A stretch of DNA of 64,000 nt, from positions 186,001 through 250,000 of the forward strand of contig NZ_WHJH01000002.1 in the NCBI RefSeq assembly GCF_011682145.1, in the 5' to 3' direction. The position numbers were made by a program, and so were the translations under genes. This document shows positions 21,046 to 36,668 of this stretch, in pieces. Below the pieces are notes generated by a model. It was not told the origin of the DNA. It did no database searches and saw nothing but the letters and a program-made list of their open reading frames with translations. Positions within the stretch are counted from its first letter, which is position 1; the number at the start of each line of letters is the position of its first letter. The stretch comes from Massilia mucilaginosa (GTDB lineage: Bacteria; Pseudomonadota; Gammaproteobacteria; Burkholderiales; Burkholderiaceae_D).

Positions 21046-21077
21046 ACAATGACATCTCAACAGTTTTGAAAGACATC

Positions 21078-24000
21078 ATGACTCCCATCATCATCGACGG
21101 CGACGACAATAACAACTATCTGAATGGCGGCTCAGCGGCGGAAGTGATGAACGGAAAGGGCGGTGACGATTTCCTGTACGGCGGCGATGGCAACGATACC
21201 CTTGACGGCGGCGCCGGCAACGATATCCTCGATGGCTCCTTCGGCGCCAACACTTACCGCTGGGGGCGCGGCGGCGGACAGGACGTCGTCGTGCGCGGCG
21301 GCGTGAGCGATGCCGGCATGAACCTGCTGCAACTGGGCGATGACCTGGCCCCGGCCGATCTGCGCCTGGAGCGTTACAACGACGACCTGGTGCTCGGCAT
21401 CGCCGGCACCACCGACAGCCTGACGGTGCACGGGTTTTTCATGCCGGGGGTCGGCTACAACGGCGCCATGGCGTGGGCCTACCCGCTCAGCGAAATCGGC
21501 TTCGCCGACGGTACCCGCTGGGACATGCAGGCAATCCAGAGCCAGGTCAAGCTCGGCGGCAGGCCGTTGACCGTGCTCGACGACCAGGATAATTATCTGT
21601 ACGGCCCCTTCCTCGACGGCGCCGGCGGCAACGACATGCTCTCCGGCTCCGGCCCGTCCGTGCTGATCGGCGGCAGCGGCAACGATACCCTGATCGGTTC
21701 CCAGATGGACGATGTGCTGGCCGGCGGCAGCGGCGACGACAGCCTGGTCGGCGGCTTCGGCAACGATTTTCTCGATGGCGGCAGCGGCAACGACCTGCTC
21801 GACGGCGAAGGCGGCTTCGACACCTACCGTTTCGGCTACGGCAGCGGCCAGGACAGCATCGCCGCGCCCAAGTACGGCCAGGGCGACAGTTTGCTGATCG
21901 ACATGGCGGCCGGGGTCCAGGCCGGTACCCTGACGGTGCTGCGCCCGCTCCCGGACAGCCCGGACCTGGTGCTGGAACTGCCGCTGAGCGGCGAGCGCCT
22001 GACCGTCAAGGATTATTTCATCGCGCCGCGCACGGTGAGCATCCACTTCGCCGACGGCAGCGTGATGAGCAAGTCGGCGATCGACATGCGGGTCTACGGC
22101 GGGATGCCGGTCAACACGGTCAACGGCACCGACGGCGCCGATTTCCTCAATGGCGGCTATGACAGCGACATCCTGCGCGGCGGCGGCGGCGACGATACCC
22201 TGGCCGGCCAGAACGGCGACGACCTGCTGATCGGCGGCGACGGCAACGACATGCTCGATGTCTACCACGGCAACGATGTCGCCGACGGCGGCGCCGGCGA
22301 CGACCGCTTCCTGATCGGCGAGGGCCGCGCCACCTTGCTGTTCGGGCGCGCCTCCGGGCATGACTTGCTGCTGCCCGGGTACGGCGGCAGCGGCGTGACC
22401 ACGGTGCTGCTGGAAGCGGGCATCGGCGCGGCCGATATCGTCCTCACCCGCAGCGATAACGGCCAGGGCCCCGAATTGCTGATCGGCGTGGGCGGCCCCG
22501 GCGCCAGCCTGCGGGTGGCCGCGTATTTTCCGCCGATGGAGATGCAAGGGCCGGCCATCGCGCTGCAGTTCGCCGACGGCACCCGCTGGGACAAAGCGCT
22601 CATCGACAACCTGCTGCTGACCGGTAACGACGAGCATAACGACCTGCGTGGCACCATCGGCAACGACCGCATCGACGGCCGCGGCGGCAACGACGTGCTG
22701 CATGGCTTGCAGGGTAACGACCTGCTGCTGGGCGGGTCCGGGGTCGATGCGCTGCTCGGCGGCGAGGGCGACGATACTCTCAACGGCGGCCAGGGCGAGG
22801 ACTACCTGGACGACAATGTCGGCAACAACACCTATGTGTTCGCGCGCGGCGACGGGCGCGACATCATTTTCAACAATCTGAAGATGCCGGAGCTGCGCTA
22901 CCAGACCATCGTCTTTAGCGCCGGCATCCTTCCCGAGGAAGTGCATGTGCAGCGCGTCAACCGCGGCAGTTTCGACGACCTGCTGCTGACGGTCGACGGC
23001 GCGCCGGGCCAGGAAATCACGGTCCAGGGCTACATCTTCAACGACCCGGCGTACGCCACCAATATGCAGCTCAAGGAAATCCGCTTTGCCGACGGCAGCA
23101 AGTGGGACGCGGCGGCCATTTCCCAGCGCGCCAACCTGGGCACCGAGATGAACGAGAGCATCGCCGGCACCGAGGGCAACGATGTGATCGACGCCAGGGG
23201 CGGCGACGACACCCTGCTTGGCCAGGGCGGCGACGACACCCTGATCGGCGGGCGCGGCGACGACAACTTGTCCGGCGGCAACGGCTCCGATGCCTATGTA
23301 TTCAACCTGGGCGACGGGCGCGACATGCTGATCGACATGCGCGAGACCAGCGGCGAAGGCAACACCCTGCGCTTCGGCGCCGATATCAAGCCGGCCGACC
23401 TGCGCGTGACGCCGAACGGCTCCCATCTCGAACTCGCCTATGGCAATATGGGCGACATGATCGTGCTCACCACTGGCGGCGAGCCGGGCACGGAGAGCGC
23501 CATCAAGCGCATCTACTTTGCCGATGGCAGCACCGGCTTCGTCGGCGATTACTTCAACCAGGCGCCCGTGCTGGCACTGCCGCTGCCCGACCAGGCGGCG
23601 CTGGGGGGCCAGCATTTCAAGCTGACCCTGCCAGCGGGCATGTTCACCGATCCCGACGCGGGCGACGTGCTGAACCTGATGATGGCGCAAAGCGACGGCT
23701 TGCCGTTGCCCGCCTGGCTGCGCTTCGACCCGGCCAGCGCCACCCTGGAGGGCACGGTCCCGCAGGGCTTGCAGGCCAACATCCCGCTGCGCGTGACCGC
23801 GAAAGACCTGGTCGGGCTGCACGTCACGGATGACTTCATCCTGGCCGTGGGCGCCGCCAACAGCGCACCGACCGTCGCGCTGCCTGTCAAGACCATCACC
23901 ACCTACGAAAACAGCGGGTTCAGCGTGCGCACGCCGACCTTTGCCGACGCCGACATCGGCGACACCCTGAGCATCAAGGTGCGCATGGCGGACGGCAGCG

Positions 24001-25565
24001 CATTGCCCTCGTGGCTCTGGTTCGACGGCAAGGAAACCCTGAAGGCCGTGACCGATTACGACCGTGCCGGCAATTACCAGCTGGTGGCGACGGCCACCGA
24101 CCAGGGTGGCCTGACGGTATCGAGCAACATCGACATCGTCGTCAAGAATGCCAACCGGGCCCCGGTGCCGACCGAGGCGCCCGGGACGCTCAACGCCGCG
24201 CGCGACACGCCGTTTTCCTTCGCGCTGCCGGCCAGGACCCTGGTCGACCCCGATGGCGATGCCGTCACCTACCGCCTGACCCAGTCGGGCGGCGCCGCCT
24301 TGCCATCCTGGCTGAGCTTCGATCCGCTCACCCGTACCCTGTCCGGCACGCCCCTGGCGGGCGCCGCGGCAACCTTGTCGCTGGCGCTGGGCGCGACCGA
24401 TAGCGGCGGCTTCAACGGCGCCATCGGCTTCAAGCTCAACGTCGCAGCCGATGCGGCGCGCAACCTGAGCGGCAGCGCCGGCGCCGATGTGCTCGATGGC
24501 TTGTCGGCGGGTGACACCTTGTTGGGCCAGGCCGGCAATGACCGGCTCAACGGCCAGGCCGGCAACGACGTGCTCGACGGCGGCCTGGGCGCCGACCGCA
24601 TGGCCGGCGGCATCGGCGACGACCGCTACCTGGTCGATGCGGCGGGCGACCAGGTGGTCGAACTGGCGGCCCAGGGGCGCGACACCGTGGTAGCCTCGGT
24701 CGGCTACACCCTGCCCGCCAATGCCGAGGTGCTGGTACTGGGCGGGGTGGGCTCGCTGGCCGGCTACGGCAACGGCACTGACAACGTCTTGTACGGCAAT
24801 AGCGGGAATAACTTCCTCAATGGCAACGGCGGCAACGACCTGTTGCAGGGCGGCGCCGGCAACGACAGCCTGGTCGATACTATGGGCAAGAACCTGTTCG
24901 ACGGCGGCAGCGGCGTCGACACGCTCAGCGGCGGTACGAGTAACGAGCTGTACATCGGCGGCGCCGGCAACGACATCATCACGACCGGCAGCGGGATCGA
25001 CATCATCGCCTTCAACCGCGGCGACGGCAGCGATACGGTCACTCCCGGCAGCGTGGCGGACAATGTGATTTCGCTGGGACGCGGCATTACCTACGCCGAC
25101 CTGACGTTCAAGAAAGTGGGCAGCGACCTGGTGTTCGGTACCGGCGCCGGCGAGCAGATCAGCCTGAAGAACTGGTTCGGCGCGGGCAGCTACCACAGCG
25201 TGGGCAAGTTGCAGATGTTCATCGACGGTAGCGTCGACTTCCTGGCCGCGTCGCCGCTGGCCATGCACAGCCAGAAAGTCCAGCAGTTCAACTTCGATGC
25301 GCTGGCCGGCAAGTTCGAGCTGGCGCTGCTGGCCGATCCGGCGCTGGCCAGCTGGAGCCTGGCGCCCGAGCTGGCCGGCGCCTGGATCAAGGCGAGCGGC
25401 AACATGGCCATCGGCGGCGACCTGGCGCAGCAGTACGCGGCCGGCACCCTGGCCAACGTGGCCCAGGTCCCGGCCTTGAACATCATCGGCAGCAGCAGCT
25501 TCGGCGACGGCCAGTACCTGACCTATCCGATCAACCTGGCCGACGGTTCCGGCTTCCTGATGTAA
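21078..25565 (+). CDS. Giant RTX calcium-binding protein A
   Basis: A 1495-residue secreted-type protein. Residues about 1-825 alternate RTX nonapeptide blocks (GGxGxDxLx, for example GGDGNDTLDGGAGNDIL) with HCBP-related segments (pattern GRG-GQD ... FADGTRWD). Residues about 828-1125 hold three Ig-like/putative-Ig domains, each with the core LPSWLSFD...LSGTP. A second RTX block follows (about 1130-1340), then the family C-terminal region. There is no N-terminal signal peptide and almost no cysteine, as expected for type I secretion. The C-terminus ends NLADGSGFLM instead of the LNDGSPLLY of its relatives. The ATG at 21078 fits the promoter spacing. No transporter gene is nearby. Function could be adhesion, matrix or an unknown enzyme. 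Confidence 0.9.
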   Translation: MTPIIIDGDDNNNYLNGGSAAEVMNGKGGDDFLYGGDGNDTLDGGAGNDILDGSFGANTYRWGRGGGQDVVVRGGVSDAGMNLLQLGDDLAPADLRLERYNDDLVLGIAGTTDSLTVHGFFMPGVGYNGAMAWAYPLSEIGFADGTRWDMQAIQSQVKLGGRPLTVLDDQDNYLYGPFLDGAGGNDMLSGSGPSVLIGGSGNDTLIGSQMDDVLAGGSGDDSLVGGFGNDFLDGGSGNDLLDGEGGFDTYRFGYGSGQDSIAAPKYGQGDSLLIDMAAGVQAGTLTVLRPLPDSPDLVLELPLSGERLTVKDYFIAPRTVSIHFADGSVMSKSAIDMRVYGGMPVNTVNGTDGADFLNGGYDSDILRGGGGDDTLAGQNGDDLLIGGDGNDMLDVYHGNDVADGGAGDDRFLIGEGRATLLFGRASGHDLLLPGYGGSGVTTVLLEAGIGAADIVLTRSDNGQGPELLIGVGGPGASLRVAAYFPPMEMQGPAIALQFADGTRWDKALIDNLLLTGNDEHNDLRGTIGNDRIDGRGGNDVLHGLQGNDLLLGGSGVDALLGGEGDDTLNGGQGEDYLDDNVGNNTYVFARGDGRDIIFNNLKMPELRYQTIVFSAGILPEEVHVQRVNRGSFDDLLLTVDGAPGQEITVQGYIFNDPAYATNMQLKEIRFADGSKWDAAAISQRANLGTEMNESIAGTEGNDVIDARGGDDTLLGQGGDDTLIGGRGDDNLSGGNGSDAYVFNLGDGRDMLIDMRETSGEGNTLRFGADIKPADLRVTPNGSHLELAYGNMGDMIVLTTGGEPGTESAIKRIYFADGSTGFVGDYFNQAPVLALPLPDQAALGGQHFKLTLPAGMFTDPDAGDVLNLMMAQSDGLPLPAWLRFDPASATLEGTVPQGLQANIPLRVTAKDLVGLHVTDDFILAVGAANSAPTVALPVKTITTYENSGFSVRTPTFADADIGDTLSIKVRMADGSALPSWLWFDGKETLKAVTDYDRAGNYQLVATATDQGGLTVSSNIDIVVKNANRAPVPTEAPGTLNAARDTPFSFALPARTLVDPDGDAVTYRLTQSGGAALPSWLSFDPLTRTLSGTPLAGAAATLSLALGATDSGGFNGAIGFKLNVAADAARNLSGSAGADVLDGLSAGDTLLGQAGNDRLNGQAGNDVLDGGLGADRMAGGIGDDRYLVDAAGDQVVELAAQGRDTVVASVGYTLPANAEVLVLGGVGSLAGYGNGTDNVLYGNSGNNFLNGNGGNDLLQGGAGNDSLVDTMGKNLFDGGSGVDTLSGGTSNELYIGGAGNDIITTGSGIDIIAFNRGDGSDTVTPGSVADNVISLGRGITYADLTFKKVGSDLVFGTGAGEQISLKNWFGAGSYHSVGKLQMFIDGSVDFLAASPLAMHSQKVQQFNFDALAGKFELALLADPALASWSLAPELAGAWIKASGNMAIGGDLAQQYAAGTLANVAQVPALNIIGSSSFGDGQYLTYPINLADGSGFLM

Positions 25566-28534: not shown

Positions 28535-29488
28535 TTAACTGGCAAGGGCCGTATTCTGTACCCGCCAGCGCGCCACCGCCGTGTCGATATCGTGCAGGTC
28601 GAGCACCCGGTTGGGCCCGAGCTGGCGCCGCGCCAGCGCCGCGCAACTGCCGCCGGCCCAGACCTGCACACGCTCGCCCAGCCGGCTTTGCAGCTCGATC
28701 ACATTGTCGATTGCCGCGCGCGGCGACATCACGCTCGAAAACGACAGCGCCACGATGTCGGCGTGCTGCACGCGCGCCGCTTCGACGATGTCGGTGAGCG
28801 GCGTCTGCACGCCGAGCGAGACGCAGTGCGCGCCTTCCAGCGCGAACAGCGCCTCGGCCATCAGCAGGCCCAGGCCGTGGCGCTCCTGGGGCACGGTGGT
28901 GAGCAGGATGCGCGGGACGGCGTCGGCATGGCCGACCTGCTGGTTGGCCGAAAAGATCGCATTTCTCATCACGCTTTGCAGCATTTCGGCGAACAGGTGT
29001 TCTTCGAAGATGGCCAGGCCGCCGGCGGCCCAGGTTTCGCCGACCAGCGTGGTCAGGGGCGCCACCAGTTCCAGCACGAAGCGGCGCAGGCCCAGTTGCA
29101 GCAGCGACTGCGCCATTTTCTGGCGCAGCTCGTGCATCTGGTGCGCCTTGATCATGGCCAGGCACTGGCGCAGCACCGGATCGTCGGCGTCGCCGGCGAT
29201 CGAGCCGGTGCCGGACTTGCTGGCCATGTTGCTCAGCTCCTCCGTACTCAGCTGCATGATCTTGCCGGGCCGGTAGCCCATGTCGAGCAGGCGCTTGACC
29301 ACGCGCAGGCGCGCCACCTGGTCGAGCGGATACTGGCGCTCGCCGTTGGCGTCGCGCTCGGGCTGCGGAAAGTTGTAGCGCCGTTCCCACACGCGCAGGG
29401 TTTCCTTGGGGACGCCGGTCTCCCGTTCAACGTCGCTGATGCTGCTGAAGACGGCAGTGGTCGGTACTTCGCTCATTGTCGCATTCAT
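28535..29488 (-). CDS. MerR regulator with cobalamin-binding domain, CarH/LitR-like
   Basis: A 317-residue regulator. Residues about 15-83 are a MerR winged helix (SISDVERETGVPKETLRVWERRY). Residues about 105-185 are the helical B12 cap domain with the light-sensor motif W153-x9-E163-H164, and about 190-310 form the Rossmann B12 domain with E202-x-H204-x-x-G207, where the histidine is the expected lower cobalt ligand. These features are the hallmarks of adenosylcobalamin photoreceptors of the CarH/LitR group, which bind DNA in the dark and let go in light. It is divergent from a lipid-modification operon across 291 bases containing two palindromes. The light role is inferred; the family call is firm. 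Confidence 0.9.
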   Translation of the reverse strand: MNATMSEVPTTAVFSSISDVERETGVPKETLRVWERRYNFPQPERDANGERQYPLDQVARLRVVKRLLDMGYRPGKIMQLSTEELSNMASKSGTGSIAGDADDPVLRQCLAMIKAHQMHELRQKMAQSLLQLGLRRFVLELVAPLTTLVGETWAAGGLAIFEEHLFAEMLQSVMRNAIFSANQQVGHADAVPRILLTTVPQERHGLGLLMAEALFALEGAHCVSLGVQTPLTDIVEAARVQHADIVALSFSSVMSPRAAIDNVIELQSRLGERVQVWAGGSCAALARRQLGPNRVLDLHDIDTAVARWRVQNTALAS

Positions 29489-29680
29489 GGTTTGTTCAGG
29501 ACATCATCCTGATTGTAAGTTGAAATCATGCGCATAAAACTACTGTTTATATCAGCTTGTTTTCACGGTCCGCTTCCAGCGCGACATGATGCCATGCCTG
29601 TGGATTTTTCTGCTCAGTATTAAATCGCGTTTCTTGAATCCAATTTCCTACCCGTCACGTATATATCCATGTTGCCGCGT

Positions 29681-29757
29681 TTTGTCATGGACAAAGCGTT
29701 GACAGATTTCATTATTTCACGGATTATCCGTCAGATGGGGAGTTTGTCCTAGACAAA
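29681..29757 (+). promoter_or_regulatory. Promoter with two TTTGTC-N3-GACAAA operators
   Basis: Palindrome 1 is 29681-29695 (TTTGTC ATG GACAAA), directly before a -35 TTGACA (29699-29704). The matching -10 is GATTAT (29722-29727, 17-base spacer). Palindrome 2 is 29743-29757 (TTTGTC CTA GACAAA), downstream of the -10. The identical arms flank the promoter of the operon starting at 29780, the arrangement expected for repression by the divergent CarH-like regulator. An imperfect third copy is at 29491-29505. The rest of the 291-base gap shows nothing else. Confidence 0.8.
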
Positions 29758-29779
29758 ACAAGGAAAACAGGTGGATGTG

Positions 29780-31078
29780 ATGAAGATTGCAGTGATTGGG
29801 GCGGGGATTTCCGGTTTGTCGTGTGCCTACCGGCTTGTCCATGGCGGGGCGGACGTGACCCTGTACGAGGCGGGCGCTTACTTCGGCGGCCACAGCAATA
29901 CCGTCGACGTCACCCTGGACGGCGTCACGCACGGCGTGGACACCGGTTTTTTGGTGTTCAACGAGCGCACCTATCCCAATCTGATCGCCCTGTTCGCCGA
30001 GCTTGGCGTGGAAACGGCGCCGAGCGACATGTCGTTCTCGGTCAAGCTGCCGCTCGGGCAGCAAGCCGGCGCGCGCGTGCTGGAATGGGCCGGCAGCAAT
30101 CTCGACACCCTGTTCGCCCAGCGCGGCAACCTGCTGCGCCCGCGCTTCCTGCGCATGGTGCGCGACATCCTGCGCTTCAACCGGCACGCCAGCAGCCTGG
30201 CCACGGCCAACCGCATGCCGGCCATCTCGCTTGGTGAATTCCTCGACCAGCACAACTACAGCGAGCAGTTCCGCGCCTGGTACCTGCTGCCGATGGCCGC
30301 CTGCATCTGGTCCTGTCCGTCAAGCCAGATGCTGGCCTTCCCGGTGGCCACCTTCATTCGCTTCTGCCACAACCACGGCCTGCTGCAGGTGAGCGACCGG
30401 CCGCAGTGGCACACCGTGCGCGGCGGCTCGCGCAACTATGTCGACAAACTGCTGGCCGCGATTCCCCGGCGCCGCCTCGGCACGCCGGTGACGTCCGTCA
30501 CGCGCAATCCGGCCGGCGGCGCGCGTTCGGTGCGGGTCGATACCGCCCAGGACACCGAACAGTTCGACCACGTCGTCATGGCCTGCCACAGCGACCAGTC
30601 GCTGGCGCTGCTGAAAGACGCGCGCGAAGACGAGCGTTCGGTGCTGGCGGCGGTGCGCTACCAGCCCAACCGCGCCGTGCTGCACACCGACGCCAGCTGC
30701 CTGCCGCGCAGCCGCAAGGCCTGGTCGGCCTGGAATTACCAGAGCACGGCGTCGGCCACGCCGCAGGTGTGTGTGCACTACCTGCTCAATGAGCTGCAGC
30801 CGCTGCCCTTCAAAACGCCGCTGATCGTCTCGCTCAACCCGATCGACGAACCGAATCGCGCACGCGTGCTGCAATCGTTCGCGTACGCGCACCCGGTGTT
30901 CGACGATGCCGCCGTGGCCGCACAAGGGCGCCTGGCGCTCTTCCAGGGGCAGCAGAACACCTGGTTCGCCGGTGCCTGGACCGGCTACGGCTTCCATGAA
31001 GATGGCCTCAAGTCGGGCCTGGCCGCCGCCGCCGCCCTGACCCGCCTGATGCAGGGCACGCGCGATGCGGCGGCCTGA
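29780..31078 (+). CDS. FAD-dependent oxidoreductase (amine oxidase/desaturase-like)
   Basis: A 432-residue flavoprotein. The N-terminal Rossmann motif is VIGAGISGLSCAYRL with the acidic end of the second strand (LYEAG), and a second FAD contact lies near the C-terminus (WFAGAWTGYGFHEDGLKSG), as in the flavin amine oxidase/phytoene-desaturase superfamily. It leads the light-operon-type cluster together with DUF1365 and a CFA-like methyltransferase, so a desaturase or oxidase acting on lipid chains is likely (inference). AGGTGG five bases before the ATG sets the start; GTG nine bases earlier is an alternative. Its stop lies 14 bases inside the next gene. Confidence 0.9.
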   Translation: MKIAVIGAGISGLSCAYRLVHGGADVTLYEAGAYFGGHSNTVDVTLDGVTHGVDTGFLVFNERTYPNLIALFAELGVETAPSDMSFSVKLPLGQQAGARVLEWAGSNLDTLFAQRGNLLRPRFLRMVRDILRFNRHASSLATANRMPAISLGEFLDQHNYSEQFRAWYLLPMAACIWSCPSSQMLAFPVATFIRFCHNHGLLQVSDRPQWHTVRGGSRNYVDKLLAAIPRRRLGTPVTSVTRNPAGGARSVRVDTAQDTEQFDHVVMACHSDQSLALLKDAREDERSVLAAVRYQPNRAVLHTDASCLPRSRKAWSAWNYQSTASATPQVCVHYLLNELQPLPFKTPLIVSLNPIDEPNRARVLQSFAYAHPVFDDAAVAAQGRLALFQGQQNTWFAGAWTGYGFHEDGLKSGLAAAAALTRLMQGTRDAAA

Positions 31079-31883
31079 CCCGGCGCCCGCGCCGCGCGCG
31101 CAGCTGTGCTTCGGCCAGGTGCGCCACACGCGCCTGCGGCCCGTGCTCAACGCCTTCGCCTACGCCACCTATTATGTGCGCCTGCCGCTGCGCGCGATGG
31201 CGGCGCAAGGCTTCGGCTGCGCGCTGTTTTCGCGCAACCGCTTCAACCTGCTGTCGTTCGCCGACGCCGACCATGGCGACGGCAAGCAGCCGCTGGTCGA
31301 CTGGATCGACGGCCTGCTGCGCCAGGAAGGCATTCTTGATGCCGATGGCGAAGTCTGGCTGCAAACCATGCCGCGCGTGCTCGGCTTCGTGTTCAACCCG
31401 GTCTCGTTCTGGTTTTGCCACCGGCGCGACGGCGCCCTGCGCGCGCTGGTGTGCGACGTGCGCAATACCTTCGGCGAACGCCATTTCTATTTGCTCGACA
31501 CCGGCGCCGACATCGCCAACGGCCAGGAACTGCACGCGCGCAAAGTGTTCCACGTCTCGCCCTTCTGCGAAGTGCAGGGCGGCTACCGCTTCCGCTTCAC
31601 GCACGTCGTGCGCATGAAGGATGGCCAGGCGCAGGACAGCACGCTGGCCTGCATCGACTACCACGACGCCGACGCTGATGTTGACGGACCGCTGCTGCAA
31701 ACCAGTTTGTCCGGCAGCGCCGCGCCAATCACCGCCGCCAGCGTCGCGCGCGCCTTCTTCGGTTTTCCGCTGATGACGGCCGGCGTGGTGGCGCGCATCC
31801 ATCTCCAGGCGCTGCGCCTGTGGCTGCGGCGCGTTCCCTTCTTCTCCAAACCGACTCCACCCCAACATAAGGTAACCCGATGA
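31065..31883 (+). CDS. DUF1365 family protein
   Basis: A 272-residue protein of the DUF1365 family. Typical stretches are RHTRLRPVLNAFAYATYYVRLPL near the N-terminus, RVLGFVFNPVSFWFCH around residue 105, and FHVSPFCEVQGGYRF. It has no clear signal peptide. The biochemical function is unknown, but the gene nearly always travels with a flavoprotein and a CFA-synthase-like methyltransferase, as here. It overlaps the flavoprotein gene by 14 bases and the methyltransferase gene by four, so translation is coupled. Inference: a component of the same membrane lipid modification route. Confidence 0.92.
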   Translation: MRRPDPAPAPRAQLCFGQVRHTRLRPVLNAFAYATYYVRLPLRAMAAQGFGCALFSRNRFNLLSFADADHGDGKQPLVDWIDGLLRQEGILDADGEVWLQTMPRVLGFVFNPVSFWFCHRRDGALRALVCDVRNTFGERHFYLLDTGADIANGQELHARKVFHVSPFCEVQGGYRFRFTHVVRMKDGQAQDSTLACIDYHDADADVDGPLLQTSLSGSAAPITAASVARAFFGFPLMTAGVVARIHLQALRLWLRRVPFFSKPTPPQHKVTR

Positions 31884-33112
31884 GCTCCCAATCCCTGCCA
31901 TCGCTTGTTCCGGCCGCGCCGAGCCATCGCGCGGCCACGTCCGCGCCCTCGTCAGCCAAAGTCATTCTCAAGCTGCTCGAAAACCTGAAACACGGTGCGC
32001 TGACCTTGATCACGCCGGACGGCGCGCAGCGGCACTTCGGCGACGAGTCGGTTCCGGTGATCCTGGAACTGCATAACTGGAACTGCTTCAGCGCGGCCCT
32101 GCGTTCGGGCGACATCGGCTTTGCCGAAACCTATATCGAGGGCGACTGGCAGACCAACAACCTGACCGCCCTGATCGCGCTGCTGGCGCGCAACCGCGCC
32201 GCCATCGAAACGCTGGTCTACGGCAGCTGGTGGGGCAGCCTGGCGTACCGCATCAAGCACCTGTTGAACCGCAACAGCAAGTCCGGCAGCCGCAAGAACA
32301 TCCACGCCCACTACGACATCGGCAATGCGTTCTACACACTGTGGCTCGACCCGTCGATGACCTATTCGAGCGCCTTGTATACAGAGGCCAGCGGGCGCGA
32401 CCTGGAACAGGCGCAGAAGGCCAAGTACCGCAGCATCCTGCGCCAGCTGGATGTCTCGCCCGGCCAGAAGGTGCTGGAAATCGGCTGCGGCTGGGGAGGC
32501 TTCGCCGAACTGGCCGCGCGCGACGCCGAAGTCCATGTGACCGGGCTGACCCTGTCGGAGCAGCAGCTGGCCTACGCCAGGACGCGCCTCGACAAGGCCG
32601 GGTTATCGGATAAAACCGACCTGCGCCTGTGCGACTACCGCGACAGCGCCGGCCAGTACGATGCGATCGCCTCGATCGAGATGTTCGAAGCGGTGGGCGA
32701 GAGCTACTGGCCGAGCTACTTCGAGTGCATCGCGCGCAACCTCAAGCAGGGCGGGCGCGCCTGCATCCAGACCATCGTGATCGCCGACGAACTGTTCGAG
32801 CGCTATCGCAAGGGCACCGACTTCATCCAGCAGTTCATCTTCCCGGGCGGGATGCTGCCGTCGCCGTCGGCCTTCGAGCGCATGGCCTTCGAACATGGCT
32901 TGACGGTGACGAACGCATACCGCTTCGGGATCGACTACGCCGACACCCTGGTCGCGTGGCGCCAGGCCTTCCATGCGCGCATCGACGAGGTGCGCGCGCA
33001 GGGCTTCGACGAGCGCTTCATCCGCACCTGGGAGTTTTACCTGTGCTACTGCGAGGCCGCGTTCCGTGAAAAGAACACCGACGTCATGCACTTCACCCTG
33101 ACGAAAGCCTGA
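31880..33112 (+). CDS. Cyclopropane-fatty-acid-synthase-like lipid methyltransferase
   Basis: A 410-residue S-adenosylmethionine-dependent enzyme of the CFA synthase family, which methylates or cyclopropanates the double bond of phospholipid acyl chains. It shows the family motif HAHYDIGNAFYTLWLD (about residues 142-157) and the SAM-binding loop VLEIGCGWGGFAE (198-210). The sequence IEMFEAVGESYWPSYF contains the conserved catalytic-site region, and the C-terminal WEFYLCYCEAAFRE is typical. In clusters with DUF1365 and a flavoprotein such enzymes can make methyl-branched or furan fatty acids rather than cyclopropanes, so the exact product is open. Start overlaps the previous stop. Confidence 0.92.
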   Translation: MSSQSLPSLVPAAPSHRAATSAPSSAKVILKLLENLKHGALTLITPDGAQRHFGDESVPVILELHNWNCFSAALRSGDIGFAETYIEGDWQTNNLTALIALLARNRAAIETLVYGSWWGSLAYRIKHLLNRNSKSGSRKNIHAHYDIGNAFYTLWLDPSMTYSSALYTEASGRDLEQAQKAKYRSILRQLDVSPGQKVLEIGCGWGGFAELAARDAEVHVTGLTLSEQQLAYARTRLDKAGLSDKTDLRLCDYRDSAGQYDAIASIEMFEAVGESYWPSYFECIARNLKQGGRACIQTIVIADELFERYRKGTDFIQQFIFPGGMLPSPSAFERMAFEHGLTVTNAYRFGIDYADTLVAWRQAFHARIDEVRAQGFDERFIRTWEFYLCYCEAAFREKNTDVMHFTLTKA

Positions 33113-33113
33113 G

Positions 33114-33656
33114 ATGCGGCGCCGCCAGCTCCTGCTGTCCGCCTGTGCGCTGATGGTCGTCAAGTCCGCCAGCGCAGCTCCCGGCCATATCGAAGAACAC
33201 CTGCCGCAGGCAAGGGTGGCCGGCAAGGGCACGTTTACCTGGTTCTCGCTGGCGATCTACGACGCCGAACTGTGGGTGGGCGACCAGGGCTACCGGCCTG
33301 ACGCTCCCTTTGCCGCGCCGTTTGTGCTCGACCTGCGCTACGCGCGCAAGCTCGATGGCGTCAAGATCGCCGAGGCCAGCGCCGAGCAGATGGAAAAAAT
33401 CGGCGCCGGGACGCCGCTTCAACGCGCCCAGTGGCTGGCCAAAATGAAGACCATCTTCCCCGATGTGAAGGAAGGCACGCATATCAGCGGCGTGTTCCTG
33501 CCCGGCGCGGGCGCGCGCTTTTACCTCGATGGCAAGGCGCTGGCATTGGTTCCCGACCAGGACTTTGCGCGCGCGTTTTTCGGCATCTGGCTCGATAGCG
33601 CCACCAGCGCGCGCGCGCTGCGCACCGCACTGCTCAAAGACGCCGCGCCGCGATGA
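33114..33656 (+). CDS. Chalcone isomerase-like exported protein
   Basis: A 180-residue protein with a chalcone-isomerase fold and an N-terminal signal peptide (MRRRQLLLSACALMVVKSASA). Typical parts are TWFSLAIYDAELWV, LRYARKLDGVKIAEAS and the end region FFGIWLDSATSARALRTALL. Bacterial members are not flavonoid enzymes; they are thought to bind fatty-acid-like ligands in the periplasm. It starts one base after the methyltransferase stop and overlaps the transporter gene by four bases. In this operon it may carry a lipid product or precursor (inference). Confidence 0.88.
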   Translation: MRRRQLLLSACALMVVKSASAAPGHIEEHLPQARVAGKGTFTWFSLAIYDAELWVGDQGYRPDAPFAAPFVLDLRYARKLDGVKIAEASAEQMEKIGAGTPLQRAQWLAKMKTIFPDVKEGTHISGVFLPGAGARFYLDGKALALVPDQDFARAFFGIWLDSATSARALRTALLKDAAPR

Positions 33657-34900
33657 GCCGCCTGTCGCTGGCGAAGCTGCTCTCGTACGGCCTGTTCGGC
33701 CTGCCGCTGGCGATGGTCGCGCTGCCGATCTATGTTTACCTGCCCCAGTTTTACGCCGAACGCGCCGGCCTGTCGCTGGCGCTGATCGGCGCCGTGCTGC
33801 TGGCCGCGCGCGTGGGCGCCGCTTTCATCGACCCGCTGCTCGGCTGGTGGATCGAGCGCGGGCAGGGCGCCTATGCGCGCTACGTGGCGCTGGCGCTGCC
33901 GCTGCTGCTGGCAGGCTTCGTGGCGCTGTTCCATCCGCCGGCGCTGGGCAGCCTGGCGACCATGGCCTGGTTTCTCGGCACCCTGATGCTGGTCTACCTG
34001 GGGTTTGGCATCGCCACCATCGCGCACCAGAGCTGGGGCGCGGCGCTCACCCAGGCGCCGCTCGAACGCGCGCGCGTGACCGGCGTGCGCGAAGCCTGCG
34101 GCCTGGCCGGCGTGGTGCTGGCCGCCGCGGTCACTGGCGCGGCCGGCTACGACGCATTGAGTCTGGCCTTCGCCGCCACCCTGGCCGTGGGCGGCGCGCT
34201 GCTGCTGGTGCGCGCGCCGCGTGCGCCGGTCAAGGCGGCATTCGAAGCGCGGCCCGGCTGGCGCGCCATGGCCGCGCCGTTTCGCCAAGCGCCGTTCCGC
34301 GCCCTGTTCGCGGTGCTGATCGTGAACGGCATCGCCTCGTCGATTCCGGCCACGCTGTTTCTGTTTTTCGCCGCCGACCGCTTGCAACTGGGCGCCATGT
34401 CGGCCCTGTTCCTGATCATTTACTTCGCCGCGGCGGCCTGCTCGATGCCGCTGTGGATCGCCGCCGCCGCCCGCTTCGGCGAGGCGCGCGCATGGGCGGC
34501 CGGCATGCTGCTGGCCGCTGCCGTCTTCGTCTGGGCTTTCGGGCTGGGCGCGGGCGCGAGCATCGCCTTCGGCGTCATCTGCCTGCTGTCAGGGCTGGCG
34601 CTGGGGGCCGACCTGGCGCTGCCGCCGGCGCTGCTGGCCGGCGTGATCGCCGGCGCCGGTCATGCGGGCGGGCGCGAAGCGGCCTATTTCGGCGTGTGGA
34701 ACTGGGGCGTGCAAATGACCCTGGCGCTGGCCGCCGGCATCGCCCTGCCGCTGCTGGCGTGGCTCGGCTACGTGCCCGGCGCGGGCGGCGGCAGTGGTAA
34801 TGGTACCGCGGCGCTGGCGGCGGCCTACGCACTGCTGCCGTGCGCCCTCAAATTGCTGGCCGCCGCCATGTTGTGGCGCGCGCCGCTTCGTCACTGTTGA
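33653..34900 (+). CDS. MFS transporter (GPH/MFS_2-like)
   Basis: A 415-residue polytopic protein with about twelve hydrophobic segments. The stretch GAAFIDPLLGWWIERGQG corresponds to the conserved cytoplasmic loop after the second helix in the glycoside-pentoside-hexuronide/MFS_2 group, which contains sugar and lysolipid transporters. Substrate cannot be read from sequence; the lipid-centred operon suggests a lipid-related or small hydrophobic cargo. It overlaps the chalcone-isomerase-like gene by four bases and is 18 bases before the DUF3833 gene. Confidence 0.88.
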   Translation: MSRLSLAKLLSYGLFGLPLAMVALPIYVYLPQFYAERAGLSLALIGAVLLAARVGAAFIDPLLGWWIERGQGAYARYVALALPLLLAGFVALFHPPALGSLATMAWFLGTLMLVYLGFGIATIAHQSWGAALTQAPLERARVTGVREACGLAGVVLAAAVTGAAGYDALSLAFAATLAVGGALLLVRAPRAPVKAAFEARPGWRAMAAPFRQAPFRALFAVLIVNGIASSIPATLFLFFAADRLQLGAMSALFLIIYFAAAACSMPLWIAAAARFGEARAWAAGMLLAAAVFVWAFGLGAGASIAFGVICLLSGLALGADLALPPALLAGVIAGAGHAGGREAAYFGVWNWGVQMTLALAAGIALPLLAWLGYVPGAGGGSGNGTAALAAAYALLPCALKLLAAAMLWRAPLRHC

Positions 34901-34918
34901 TCACCAAAGGATAGCCCC

Positions 34919-35473
34919 ATGAAACTCCACAAGATCTTTGCCGCCGGCGCGCTGGCGCTGGCCATCGCCGGCTGCGGCACGCCCTCGCCCGACACCTATG
35001 CGAAGCAGACCCCGGCGCTCGACATCACCCGGTACTTCAACGGCACGCTGGACGCGCACGGCATGTTCCAGGACCGCTCCGGGGAAGTCATCAAGCGCTT
35101 CGTGGTGCAGATGCGCTGCACGTGGAATGGCGACACGGGCGTGCTCGATGAAGATTTCGTCTACTCGGACGGTACCCGCCAGAAGCGCATCTGGACCCTG
35201 ACCCGCACCGGGCCGAACACGTTTACCGCCACGGCGGCGGACGTTGTCGGCACCGCGCGCGGCACCGTGTCGGGCAATGCGCTGCGCTGGCAGTACGTGC
35301 TGGCGCTGCCGGTCGACGGCAAGGTGATCAACATGGATATGGACGACTGGATGTTCCTGATCGACGACAAGGTCATGTTGAACCGCACGGCGATGAGCAA
35401 GTTCGGCGTGAACCTGGGCAGCGTGACCTTGTCGTTCACCAAGCGCACGTCAGCGCTCGTGGCGCCGCAATGA
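34919..35473 (+). CDS. DUF3833 family lipoprotein
   Basis: A 184-residue predicted outer-membrane or periplasmic lipoprotein with the lipobox AIAGC (Cys19) after a 17-residue hydrophobic signal. The DUF3833 body is recognisable by DITRYFNGTLDAHGMFQDRSGEV, the central YSDGTRQKRIWTLTRTG and WMFLIDDKVMLNRTAMSKFG. The fold is probably a lipocalin-like barrel; function unknown. It has a ribosome site AAAGGA before the ATG, and its end overlaps the SDR gene. DUF3833 genes are regular partners of DUF1365/CFA clusters. Confidence 0.9.
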   Translation: MKLHKIFAAGALALAIAGCGTPSPDTYAKQTPALDITRYFNGTLDAHGMFQDRSGEVIKRFVVQMRCTWNGDTGVLDEDFVYSDGTRQKRIWTLTRTGPNTFTATAADVVGTARGTVSGNALRWQYVLALPVDGKVINMDMDDWMFLIDDKVMLNRTAMSKFGVNLGSVTLSFTKRTSALVAPQ

Positions 35474-36237
35474 ACCCGCGCATCAAGGAGTGGCGCGGGC
35501 AGCGCGTGTGGATGATCGGCGCCTCGACCGGGATCGGCGAGGCGGCGGCGCACCTGTTGCTCGACCTGGGCGCGCGCGTGGCGTTTTCCGCGCGCAGCGC
35601 CGACAAGCTGGAACAGACGGTGGCGGGCGAACCGCGCGCGCTGGCGCTGGCGCTCGACGTGCTTGATCACGCCAGCGTGGACAAGGCCTGCCAGCGCATC
35701 GTGGCCGAGTGGGGCGGCATCGACCTGGTGCTGATCGTCGCCGGCGGCTACAACGAAATGCGGGCGGACGCGATCGACCTGGCGGCGGCCAACCGGATGA
35801 TCGACCTGAACCTGCGCGGCGCCTTCAACTGCCTGGACGTGGCGCTGCCGCTCCTGCTCGAACAGGGCGCGGGCGGGATCGGCATTGTCGCCTCGGTGGC
35901 CGGTTACGGCGGGCTGCCCAAGGCGCTGGTGTACGGACCGACCAAGGCGGCGCTGATCAACCTGTCGGAGTCGCTGTATCTGGACCTGCGTTCGCGCGGT
36001 GTCTCGGTGTACCAGATCAATCCGGGCTTTGTCGACACGCCGCTCACGGCCGGCAACGACTTCAAGATGCCGGCGCTGATGAGCGCCGCCGATGCCGCCT
36101 ATGCGATGGTGGACGGGATCGAGCGCGGCGACTTTCATATTCATTTTCCGAAGCGCTTCACCAACAGCATGCGCCTGGCGCGCCTGCTGCCGTACCGCCT
36201 GTATTTCTGGCTGATCCACAAGGTGACCGGCTTATGA
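35470..36237 (+). CDS. Short-chain dehydrogenase/reductase
   Basis: A 255-residue NAD(P)-dependent oxidoreductase with a Rossmann fold: the nucleotide loop MIGASTGIGEAAA near residue 17, the catalytic serine in VASVAGYGG and the Tyr-x3-Lys pair in VYGPTKAAL. It would interconvert an alcohol and a carbonyl group; in this operon the substrate may be a lipid intermediate (inference). The ATG lies within the end of the DUF3833 gene, and the stop overlaps the start of the NTF2-like gene (ATGA). Length is normal for a classical SDR. Confidence 0.93.
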   Translation: MNPRIKEWRGQRVWMIGASTGIGEAAAHLLLDLGARVAFSARSADKLEQTVAGEPRALALALDVLDHASVDKACQRIVAEWGGIDLVLIVAGGYNEMRADAIDLAAANRMIDLNLRGAFNCLDVALPLLLEQGAGGIGIVASVAGYGGLPKALVYGPTKAALINLSESLYLDLRSRGVSVYQINPGFVDTPLTAGNDFKMPALMSAADAAYAMVDGIERGDFHIHFPKRFTNSMRLARLLPYRLYFWLIHKVTGL

Positions 36238-36668
36238 ACCGCGCGCCCGAACTGGCACGGCTGGTGGCGTTCTACGAAGGCATCGAGCGCGCGTCGATGC
36301 GCGCCCGGATCGAGCAGATCTACGCGCCCGATGCGCAGTTCAAGGACCCGTTCAACGAGGTGCGCGGGGTCGGGCCGATCGTGGCTATCTTCCAGCATAT
36401 GTTCGAGCAGGTCGACCAGCCGCGTTTTGTGGTGACGTCGACCGTGCTGCAGGGTGACGATGCCTTTTTGACATGGGAGTTTTTGTTCCGGATGAAGCGT
36501 TTTTCAAAGGAGCCGCAATGCATTCGCGGGGCGACCCGGATTCGCTTCGATACGAACGGAGCTGTAATGACGCACCGGGATTATTGGGATGCCGCCGAGG
36601 AGCTTTACGAGAAGCTGCCGATAATAGGAAGCATGATGCGCTGGCTCAAACGCGCCGCAAATAAGTAG
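36234..36668 (+). CDS. NTF2-like/SnoaL-like small protein
   Basis: A 144-residue protein with the NTF2-like cone fold pattern: an N-terminal helix (ELARLVAFYEGIERASM), the conserved IYAPDAQFKDPFNEVRG and a beta-rich second half (DDAFLTWEFLFRMKRF, CIRGATRIRFDTNGAV). Members act as isomerases, dehydratases or ligand-binding proteins. The ATG overlaps the SDR stop and gives the conserved N-terminus; longer in-frame extensions run inside the SDR gene in another frame. It is the last gene of the eight-gene operon and may act on the SDR product. Confidence 0.88.
   Translation: MNRAPELARLVAFYEGIERASMRARIEQIYAPDAQFKDPFNEVRGVGPIVAIFQHMFEQVDQPRFVVTSTVLQGDDAFLTWEFLFRMKRFSKEPQCIRGATRIRFDTNGAVMTHRDYWDAAEELYEKLPIIGSMMRWLKRAANK

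Follow-up and report, generated by a model that had tools for sequence, protein, structure and literature searches.

Two copies of one palindrome, TTTGTC-N3-GACAAA, lie on either side of a promoter in the window (the whole stretch of 64 kb from Massilia mucilaginosa that was analysed), between a MerR-type regulator and eight tightly packed genes that diverge from it. Which protein might bind these palindromes, and why are there two of them around a single promoter? A preliminary description had proposed a CarH-like photoreceptor that forms a DNA loop or a double block in the dark and releases it in the light. The features of the region are given in Table 1. Elsewhere in the window (21066-25565), we noticed an open reading frame (ORF) of 1499 residues that is rich in GGxGxD-type repeats, and looks RTX-like by eye.

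Table 1. Features of the regulator and operon region, with positions in the window.
Feature	Position	Strand	Basis
LitR/CarH-family MerR regulator, 317 aa, divergent from operon	28535..29488	-	Pfam, PDB alignment
Weak third palindrome copy, TTTGTTCAGGACATC, candidate autoregulatory site	29491..29505	.	Adjoins regulator start
TGAATCC-N16-CGTATA, candidate activator site or additional promoter of the ECF type	29635..29663	+	Recurrence in LitR upstream regions
Operator site 1, TTTGTC-ATG-GACAAA	29681..29695	.	Candidate; pattern match, conservation among relatives
Two TnnACA units 11 bp apart (TGGACA 29688, TTGACA 29699)	29688..29704	+	CarH direct-repeat register
-35 hexamer TTGACA	29699..29704	+	Promoter scan; conserved block in alignment
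-10 hexamer GATTAT, 17-bp spacer	29722..29727	+	Promoter scan; conserved block in alignment
Operator site 2, TTTGTC-CTA-GACAAA	29743..29757	.	Candidate; 62 bp from site 1
FAD amine-oxidase-like protein, candidate UfaD-type desaturase	29780..31078	+	Pfam Amino_oxidase
DUF1365 protein (domain of UfaO, PMC7380195)	31065..31883	+	Pfam E 6.4e-79
Cyclopropane-synthase-type SAM methyltransferase	31880..33112	+	CMAS E 1.5e-84
Chalcone-isomerase-like protein	33114..33656	+	Pfam
MFS transporter	33653..34900	+	MFS_2
DUF3833 protein	34919..35473	+	Pfam
Short-chain dehydrogenase	35470..36237	+	Pfam
SnoaL-like protein, last gene of the operon	36234..36668	+	Profile match

The regulator exceeds the Pfam cut-offs for MerR_1 (58.9 against 21.6), B12-binding (41.4 against 32.1) and B12-binding_2 (25.8 against 23), and its residues 11-302 align with CarH of Thermus thermophilus (PDB 3whp/5c8d, E 2.1e-24). 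In CarH, W131, E141, H142 and H177 are key residues for the binding of adenosylcobalamin (PMC11796333), and the alignment to the PDB CarH finds the equivalents of all four in the regulator. The motifs W-x9-EH and ExHxxG, by which the preliminary description had recognised a CarH-like protein, are indeed there as W153-x9-E163-H164 and E202-x-H204-x-x-G207. Judged by its domains, the regulator is a class I member of the LitR/CarH family (LitR hereafter), with an N-terminal MerR helix-turn-helix and both B12 domains, and it is likely a vitamin-B12 light sensor. As its score with the NCBIfam profile for CarH (NF052513) is 111.2 bits and thus below the curated cut-off of 400, we do not class it as CarH proper. 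We also considered a class II LitR (PplR/PmlR2) and rejected it, since both B12 domains are present and TGTACA dyads are absent from the top dyads listed.

The two palindromes were found where they had been placed in the preliminary description, both without mismatch, site 1 before the -35 and site 2 after the -10 of a sigma-70-like promoter (TTGACA-N17-GATTAT, 29699-29727). They are the sole matches in the 64-kb window at up to two mismatches; shuffled windows contain on average 0.77 such matches, and at least two in 19 of 100 shuffles. In the whole genome, three exact copies exist, two at the LitR locus and a third that overlaps ORFs. A wider regulon in this genome was considered and rejected, as 12 of the 13 checked copies (up to one mismatch, outside the locus) overlap an ORF of at least 90 codons; such ORFs are common in this high-GC genome, and two further copies lie outside the check. 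One copy with up to one mismatch, at L008, is intergenic. On the minus strand, we observed a weaker promoter-like sequence, AGGACA-N16-GATAAT (29723-29750), the -35 of which falls inside site 2, so that a divergent promoter that overlaps the first could drive transcription of the regulator.

To compare these sites among relatives, LitR homologues were gathered by protein similarity from 195 genomes of the family and 399 genomes of the order. At E 0.001, 142 of the 195 family genomes have a match, many through the helix-turn-helix alone, and at E 1e-30 a match is found in 125 of the 399 order genomes. We used 191 LitR loci, without eight weaker or partial matches of the order and without those family matches that were partial, very distant or confined to the helix-turn-helix, and reduced them to 180 by removing 11 with near-identical upstream regions. 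Thirteen of the 191 had first been obtained via the paired pattern, and all 13 also matched in the protein search at E 1e-30.

Within 500 bp upstream of LitR, TTGTC-N3-GACAA with at most one mismatch occurs in 135 of the 180 regions (shuffled mean 2.0), and 71 regions contain two such sites (shuffled mean 0.0), compared to two regions with a reversed control pattern. The same pattern ranks first in an unsupervised count of inverted dyads (98/180). A blind search for paired sites matched 14 of the 399 order genomes, including our own (reversed control: 0), and the pairs adjoin a LitR homologue in all 14. The palindromes are thus conserved next to orthologous regulators, and the idea that the operator sequence marks this subgroup is supported; a lack of such conservation, which the preliminary description had named as grounds for refutation, was not observed. 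The B12 residues W, E, H, E, H and G are invariant in all 135 LitR that have a site. In the 45 regions where no site with up to one mismatch is present, each of these residues is still kept in 42-44 proteins; no other operator was found in these regions, as no inverted or direct dyad occurs in more than four of the 45. Even at two mismatches, 27 of the 180 regions contain no site, and most LitR of these regions share 35-45 % identity with the one in the window. The comparison supports that the palindromes are operators of the divergent class I LitR, as far as this can be predicted from DNA and protein sequences. A chance origin of the palindromes was rejected in view of the shuffles, the number of copies in the genome, the blind paired search and the counts upstream of LitR.

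How are the two sites arranged around the promoter? We found 100 pairs, of which 72 have a promoter score of at least 9. The usual layout, counted from the 13-bp core, is site1-N4-TTGACA-N17-TATNNT-N16/17-site2, and alignments of the pairs spaced by 62 bp (n=27) and 63 bp (n=36) are conserved mainly in site 1, the -35, the -10 and site 2. Among the scored pairs, the promoter spacer is 17 bp in 67 of 72 and 18 bp in five (scan range 16-18). Promoters activated by classical MerR proteins have a spacer of 19-20 bp with the operator inside it; such activation was rejected for this locus, where the spacer is 17 bp and the operators lie outside. Measured from the start of site 1 to that of the -35, the offset is 16-18 bp in 65 of the 72 scored pairs (62 of these belong to the 62-64 bp class), 26 bp in one and 28-31 bp in six; in a lower-scored pair (L207), site 1 is at 19 bp from the -35. 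Site 2 follows the -10 at 16-18 bp in 68 of 75 pairs, and at 16-17 bp also in the six pairs with the larger offset of site 1. Within the 62-64 bp class, there is a weak tendency for the two outer distances to offset each other (n=62, r -0.30, one-sided p 0.015, with kinship ignored).

These fixed distances could be explained if LitR bound each palindrome independently, at the -35 and in the early transcribed region, as a double steric block without contact, where the spacing would be set only by the place of each site relative to RNA polymerase. In line with this, the spacer and the gap between the -10 and site 2 are each fixed, and the two-site layout of PmlR2 from Pseudomonas mendocina, where Site 1 covers the -35 and Site 2 lies between the transcription start and the start codon, is described as denying access to the polymerase (PMC9758184). 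Furthermore, one genus (g6) has lost site 1 and has site 2 alone, as scored in eight loci (L041, L042, L043, L046, L219, L221, L226 and L228). However, in these loci site 2 is found 14, 12 or 3 bp from the -10 compared to the usual 16-18 bp; as the eight loci come from one genus, this pattern is perhaps one event. In addition, independent blocks do not need site 1 to be at either 16-18 or 28-31 bp from the -35, which is the case in 71 of the 72 scored pairs. We thus consider two independent blocks rather unlikely, yet the most serious of the alternatives.

The distance between the two sites is a further signal. In the set collected by protein similarity (at most one mismatch each, less than 100 bp apart), 56 of 69 pairs are spaced by 62-64 bp, and the other 13 by 52, 53, 53, 55, 59, 59, 65, 74 (four pairs), 75 and 76 bp; 24 further pairs with up to one mismatch, 108-265 bp apart, involve third sites. 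In addition, genome contigs were scanned for pairs spaced by 45-75 bp, which gave at least 120 stretches, and a LitR within 1.5 kb was required. Among the matches listed, the 61 pairs adjacent to LitR have spacings of 45, 52, 53 (five pairs), 54, 58 (two), 62 (nine), 63 (29), 64 (six), 74 (six) and 75 bp. Three stretches are present in two records each (L097/L140, L106/L138 and L141/L181), which leaves 58 distinct pairs, three of which are also in the protein-collected set. The spacing count took all 120 stretches listed and the promoter reading of scan pairs 80 of the at least 120. The 59 listed stretches without LitR within 1.5 kb include many repeat families and are no random control, and the 1.5-kb cut left out L122 (72 bp spacing, 3.2 kb from LitR) and L075 (63 bp spacing, 1.9 kb from LitR).

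The spacings cluster at 52-54, 62-64 and 74-76 bp, which corresponds to five, six and seven helical turns. Among the matches listed, 58 of the 61 pairs (56 of the 58 distinct ones) are within a quarter turn of whole turns of 10.5 bp. Outside the 62-64 bp class, 14 of 17 lineages are in phase (p 3.5e-5 in a mean-cosine test and 0.004 in a binomial test). The grouping into lineages was made by hand on the basis of handles and titles, with one spacing each (53 for L223, which has 53 and 55); the p values treat the lineages as independent, and genera could overlap or, such as Zoogloea, also hold 62-64 bp pairs. Out of phase are the genus g23 (L224, L237 and L231; 59-60 bp), a MAG stretch (L141, L181; 58 bp) and Rugamonas fusca (L185; 45 bp). 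No clear promoter was seen in the 53-bp class among the scan pairs examined. Upstream of LitR in L223, we observed three palindromes in series, 55 and 53 bp apart. A Trichormus contig (L094, 572-1577) contains six repeats 187 bp apart, each with a TTGTC-N3-GACAA pair at 58 bp; as the stretch has no LitR match, this is probably an unrelated repeat family.

Pairs of the 74-bp class have the start of site 1 at 28 bp ahead of the -35 rather than at 17 bp, and their -10 and site 2 are still 17 bp apart. Site 1 is thus shifted upstream by 11 bp, or about one helical turn, and site 2 keeps its place. The 11-bp shift can also be read as the register of CarH repeats, and this ambiguity is what weakens the loop claim most. 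LitR would then bind head to tail on 11-bp TnnACA repeats, with the right arm of site 1 as one unit and the -35 itself as the next; the palindromy would be secondary and site 2 a separate auxiliary site. Such a tandem array fits the window, where TGGACA and TTGACA are exactly 11 bp apart and the second unit is the -35 itself, and it fits GACAA-N6-GACAA as the most frequent direct dyad (in 19 of the 180 upstream regions) and the three TnnACA units at 11 bp that end in the -35 in L104, L106, L138, L280, L283 and L284, a design that matches the one described for T. thermophilus CarH (PMC9304148). Nevertheless, the central T that TnnACA requires is present in only 33 of 64 copies of site 1, the arms of both palindromes are strongly conserved, and site 2 in the window has no TnnACA partner 11 bp downstream. 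We therefore regard a tandem array as an improbable explanation of the whole arrangement. A preferred facing of the TnnACA half-sites was rejected as well, since the centre of site 1 shows no skew (33 T versus 31 A); the centre of site 2 is skewed (49 A versus 15 T).

The reading that we prefer is a clamp across the promoter. In the dark, LitR loaded with adenosylcobalamin would bind both sites; with a transcription start assumed some 7 bp downstream of the -10, site 1 covers about -54 to -40 and site 2 about +9 to +23. Sites that straddle the promoter, abut the -35 and cover this early region suggest repression. The preference for whole turns suggests that both bound units lie on the same side of the helix, as they should if they touch. 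Most likely as a dimer of dimers, LitR may then bridge or bend the roughly 62 bp over the promoter and so block RNA polymerase. Light would split the cobalt-carbon bond, the oligomer would fall apart, and the released lipid operon, probably for a furan fatty acid, would protect against photo-oxidation. We infer the binding, the bridging, the response to B12 and light and the operon product from sequence comparison. That LitR with adenosylcobalamin sits on both sites in the dark, on the same face and bridged, and shuts the promoter until light releases it seems to us evenly balanced between right and wrong; a 62-bp loop is stiff, which argues against the bridging. Somewhat more tentative is the general form of the proposal, in which a light-breakable LitR tetramer clamps a minimal loop of five, six or seven turns across a sigma-70 promoter throughout the Betaproteobacteria and in further alpha- and gammaproteobacterial records, merged in some lineages with a direct-repeat array of the CarH type. 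For the loop or double block suggested in the preliminary description, the whole-turn spacing thus adds evidence, and the loop itself stays a proposal.

Upstream of site 1, a second element may contribute to the control of the operon. GAATCC-N16-CGTATA is found in 18 of the 180 LitR upstream regions (shuffled mean 0.0) and lies 17-19 bp before site 1 where site 1 is exact. Its distance to site 2 is 78-81, 68-70 or 58 bp, that is, roughly in steps of 11, and a looser ATCC form is found 71-72 bp from site 2 in two loci. The element is similar to the RpoE2 promoter of Shewanella, TGATCC-N16-CGTATT (PMC4336711). Control by RpoE-ChrR (ECF11) was rejected, as the TGATCC form occurs in 0 of 180 regions and the best ChrR match in the genome has 26.6 bits compared to a cut-off of 124.5. 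We found no obvious target beside the two other genomic copies of the element that we inspected. This conserved ECF-like element, the fixed spacing of the sites and the 11-bp direct-repeat register with the -35, which links the locus to CarH operators, go beyond the preliminary description.

The preliminary description had also reported a weaker copy of the palindrome beside the start of the regulator and suggested autoregulation. With three mismatches in 12 positions, this copy alone is not significant. Nevertheless, TTTGTTCAGGACA is kept by the regulator start in the six closest relatives (L018-L023), and the position is nearer to the consensus in the next relatives, with two mismatches in L024, two in L025 and one in L026. 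Autoregulation may thus have local support among these relatives, while the copy in the window itself is weak.

We then turn to the genes that the promoter would serve. The eight-gene operon is borne out by the ORF list and the domain matches; its FAD gene likely starts at ATG 29780, where the ORF list gives GTG 29771. A homologue of the FAD gene is present in 87 of the 180 LitR loci, always divergent from LitR in the stretches compared, and in 57 of 97 pair loci. For 38 of the remaining 40 pair loci, we took the first ORF beyond the pair. These form clusters of 13 members (one of which is a glutathione peroxidase) and five members (FolE2), with Pfam run on one member each, as well as one cluster of three and one of two, and single ORFs include a photolyase (L207) and FolE (Pfam). 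Pairs linked to LitR thus precede, elsewhere, genes whose tested members are a photolyase, FolE, FolE2 and a glutathione peroxidase. The glutathione peroxidase would fit a general oxidative stress response, and LitR might then sense cobalamin or redox state rather than light through the same operators. We consider this very improbable, because the equivalents of the four key CarH residues are all present and a photolyase lies beyond the pair in L207.

The operon (29780-36668) resembles a furan fatty acid cluster in one piece, with genes of the DUF1365/UfaO, methyltransferase and FAD types beside a light regulator. In Rhodobacter, the furan fatty acid genes comprise ufaM and RSP1091-1087 with ufaD and ufaO; UfaO has a DUF1365 domain, and the enzymes involved include a SAM methyltransferase and a fatty-acyl desaturase (PMC7380195). 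Genes of these types are also found here, with the FAD gene as a candidate counterpart of ufaD. According to the same source, the Rhodobacter product rises upon deletion of chrR and ufaM lies apart, whereas here the genes form one operon beside LitR. From these common features, a photo-oxidative lipid role of the operon is likely, and its product is probably a furan fatty acid.

If the interpretation holds, the locus offers a candidate recognition sequence and a promoter geometry for B12 photoreceptors of a branch that is widespread, with LitR matches in 125 of the 399 order genomes. Targets then become predictable genome by genome, from the lipid operon to photolyase, GTP cyclohydrolases and glutathione peroxidase. 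The locus is also a testable case of helical phasing in a repressor of the CarH type, and a palindromic two-site operator that is released by light would be a compact tool to control genes with green light.

Several known systems share parts of this design. In Vibrio cholerae, the MerR-like VCA0056 lies next to phr and blue light induces a cyclopropane-synthase gene; the sections of PMC5241685 considered here describe no operator, and ChrR acts there, whereas no ChrR exceeds the cut-off here. The class II LitR proteins PmlR2 and PplR1 of Pseudomonas likewise are repressors with two operators (PMC9758184). In contrast to the regulator of the window, they have only one of the two B12 domains (four-helix), are released by LOV proteins and use TGTACA-N12-TGTACA sites (PMC9758184). 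At P crt of Myxococcus, the operator of CarA/CarH likewise has an inverted repeat upstream of the -35; a second one overlaps the -35, 11-bp repeats are present with the -35 inside, and the parts of PMC9304148 considered here describe no partner site downstream of the -10. In the open-licence literature that we searched, we found no palindromic operator of a class I LitR, no CarH loop, no LitR with this operon and no inverted TTGTC-N3-GACAA pairs at whole-turn spacing. CarH of T. thermophilus and Bacillus megaterium is a similar regulator, with a MerR domain, a two-part cobalamin domain and the W, EH and ExHxxG signature, and the 11-bp TnnACA step onto the -35 is a likeness of the DNA. Its operators are described as three or four tandem 11-bp direct repeats, nnnnTnnACAn (PMC9304148), whereas the promoter here lies between two inverted repeats, in most cases spaced by whole turns, with two TnnACA units only; moreover, CarH controls carotenoid genes and the genes here are lipid genes. 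With direct repeats known for class I CarH and a two-site layout for class II, the comparison suggests that paired inverted operators of a class I regulator are apparently a new variant.
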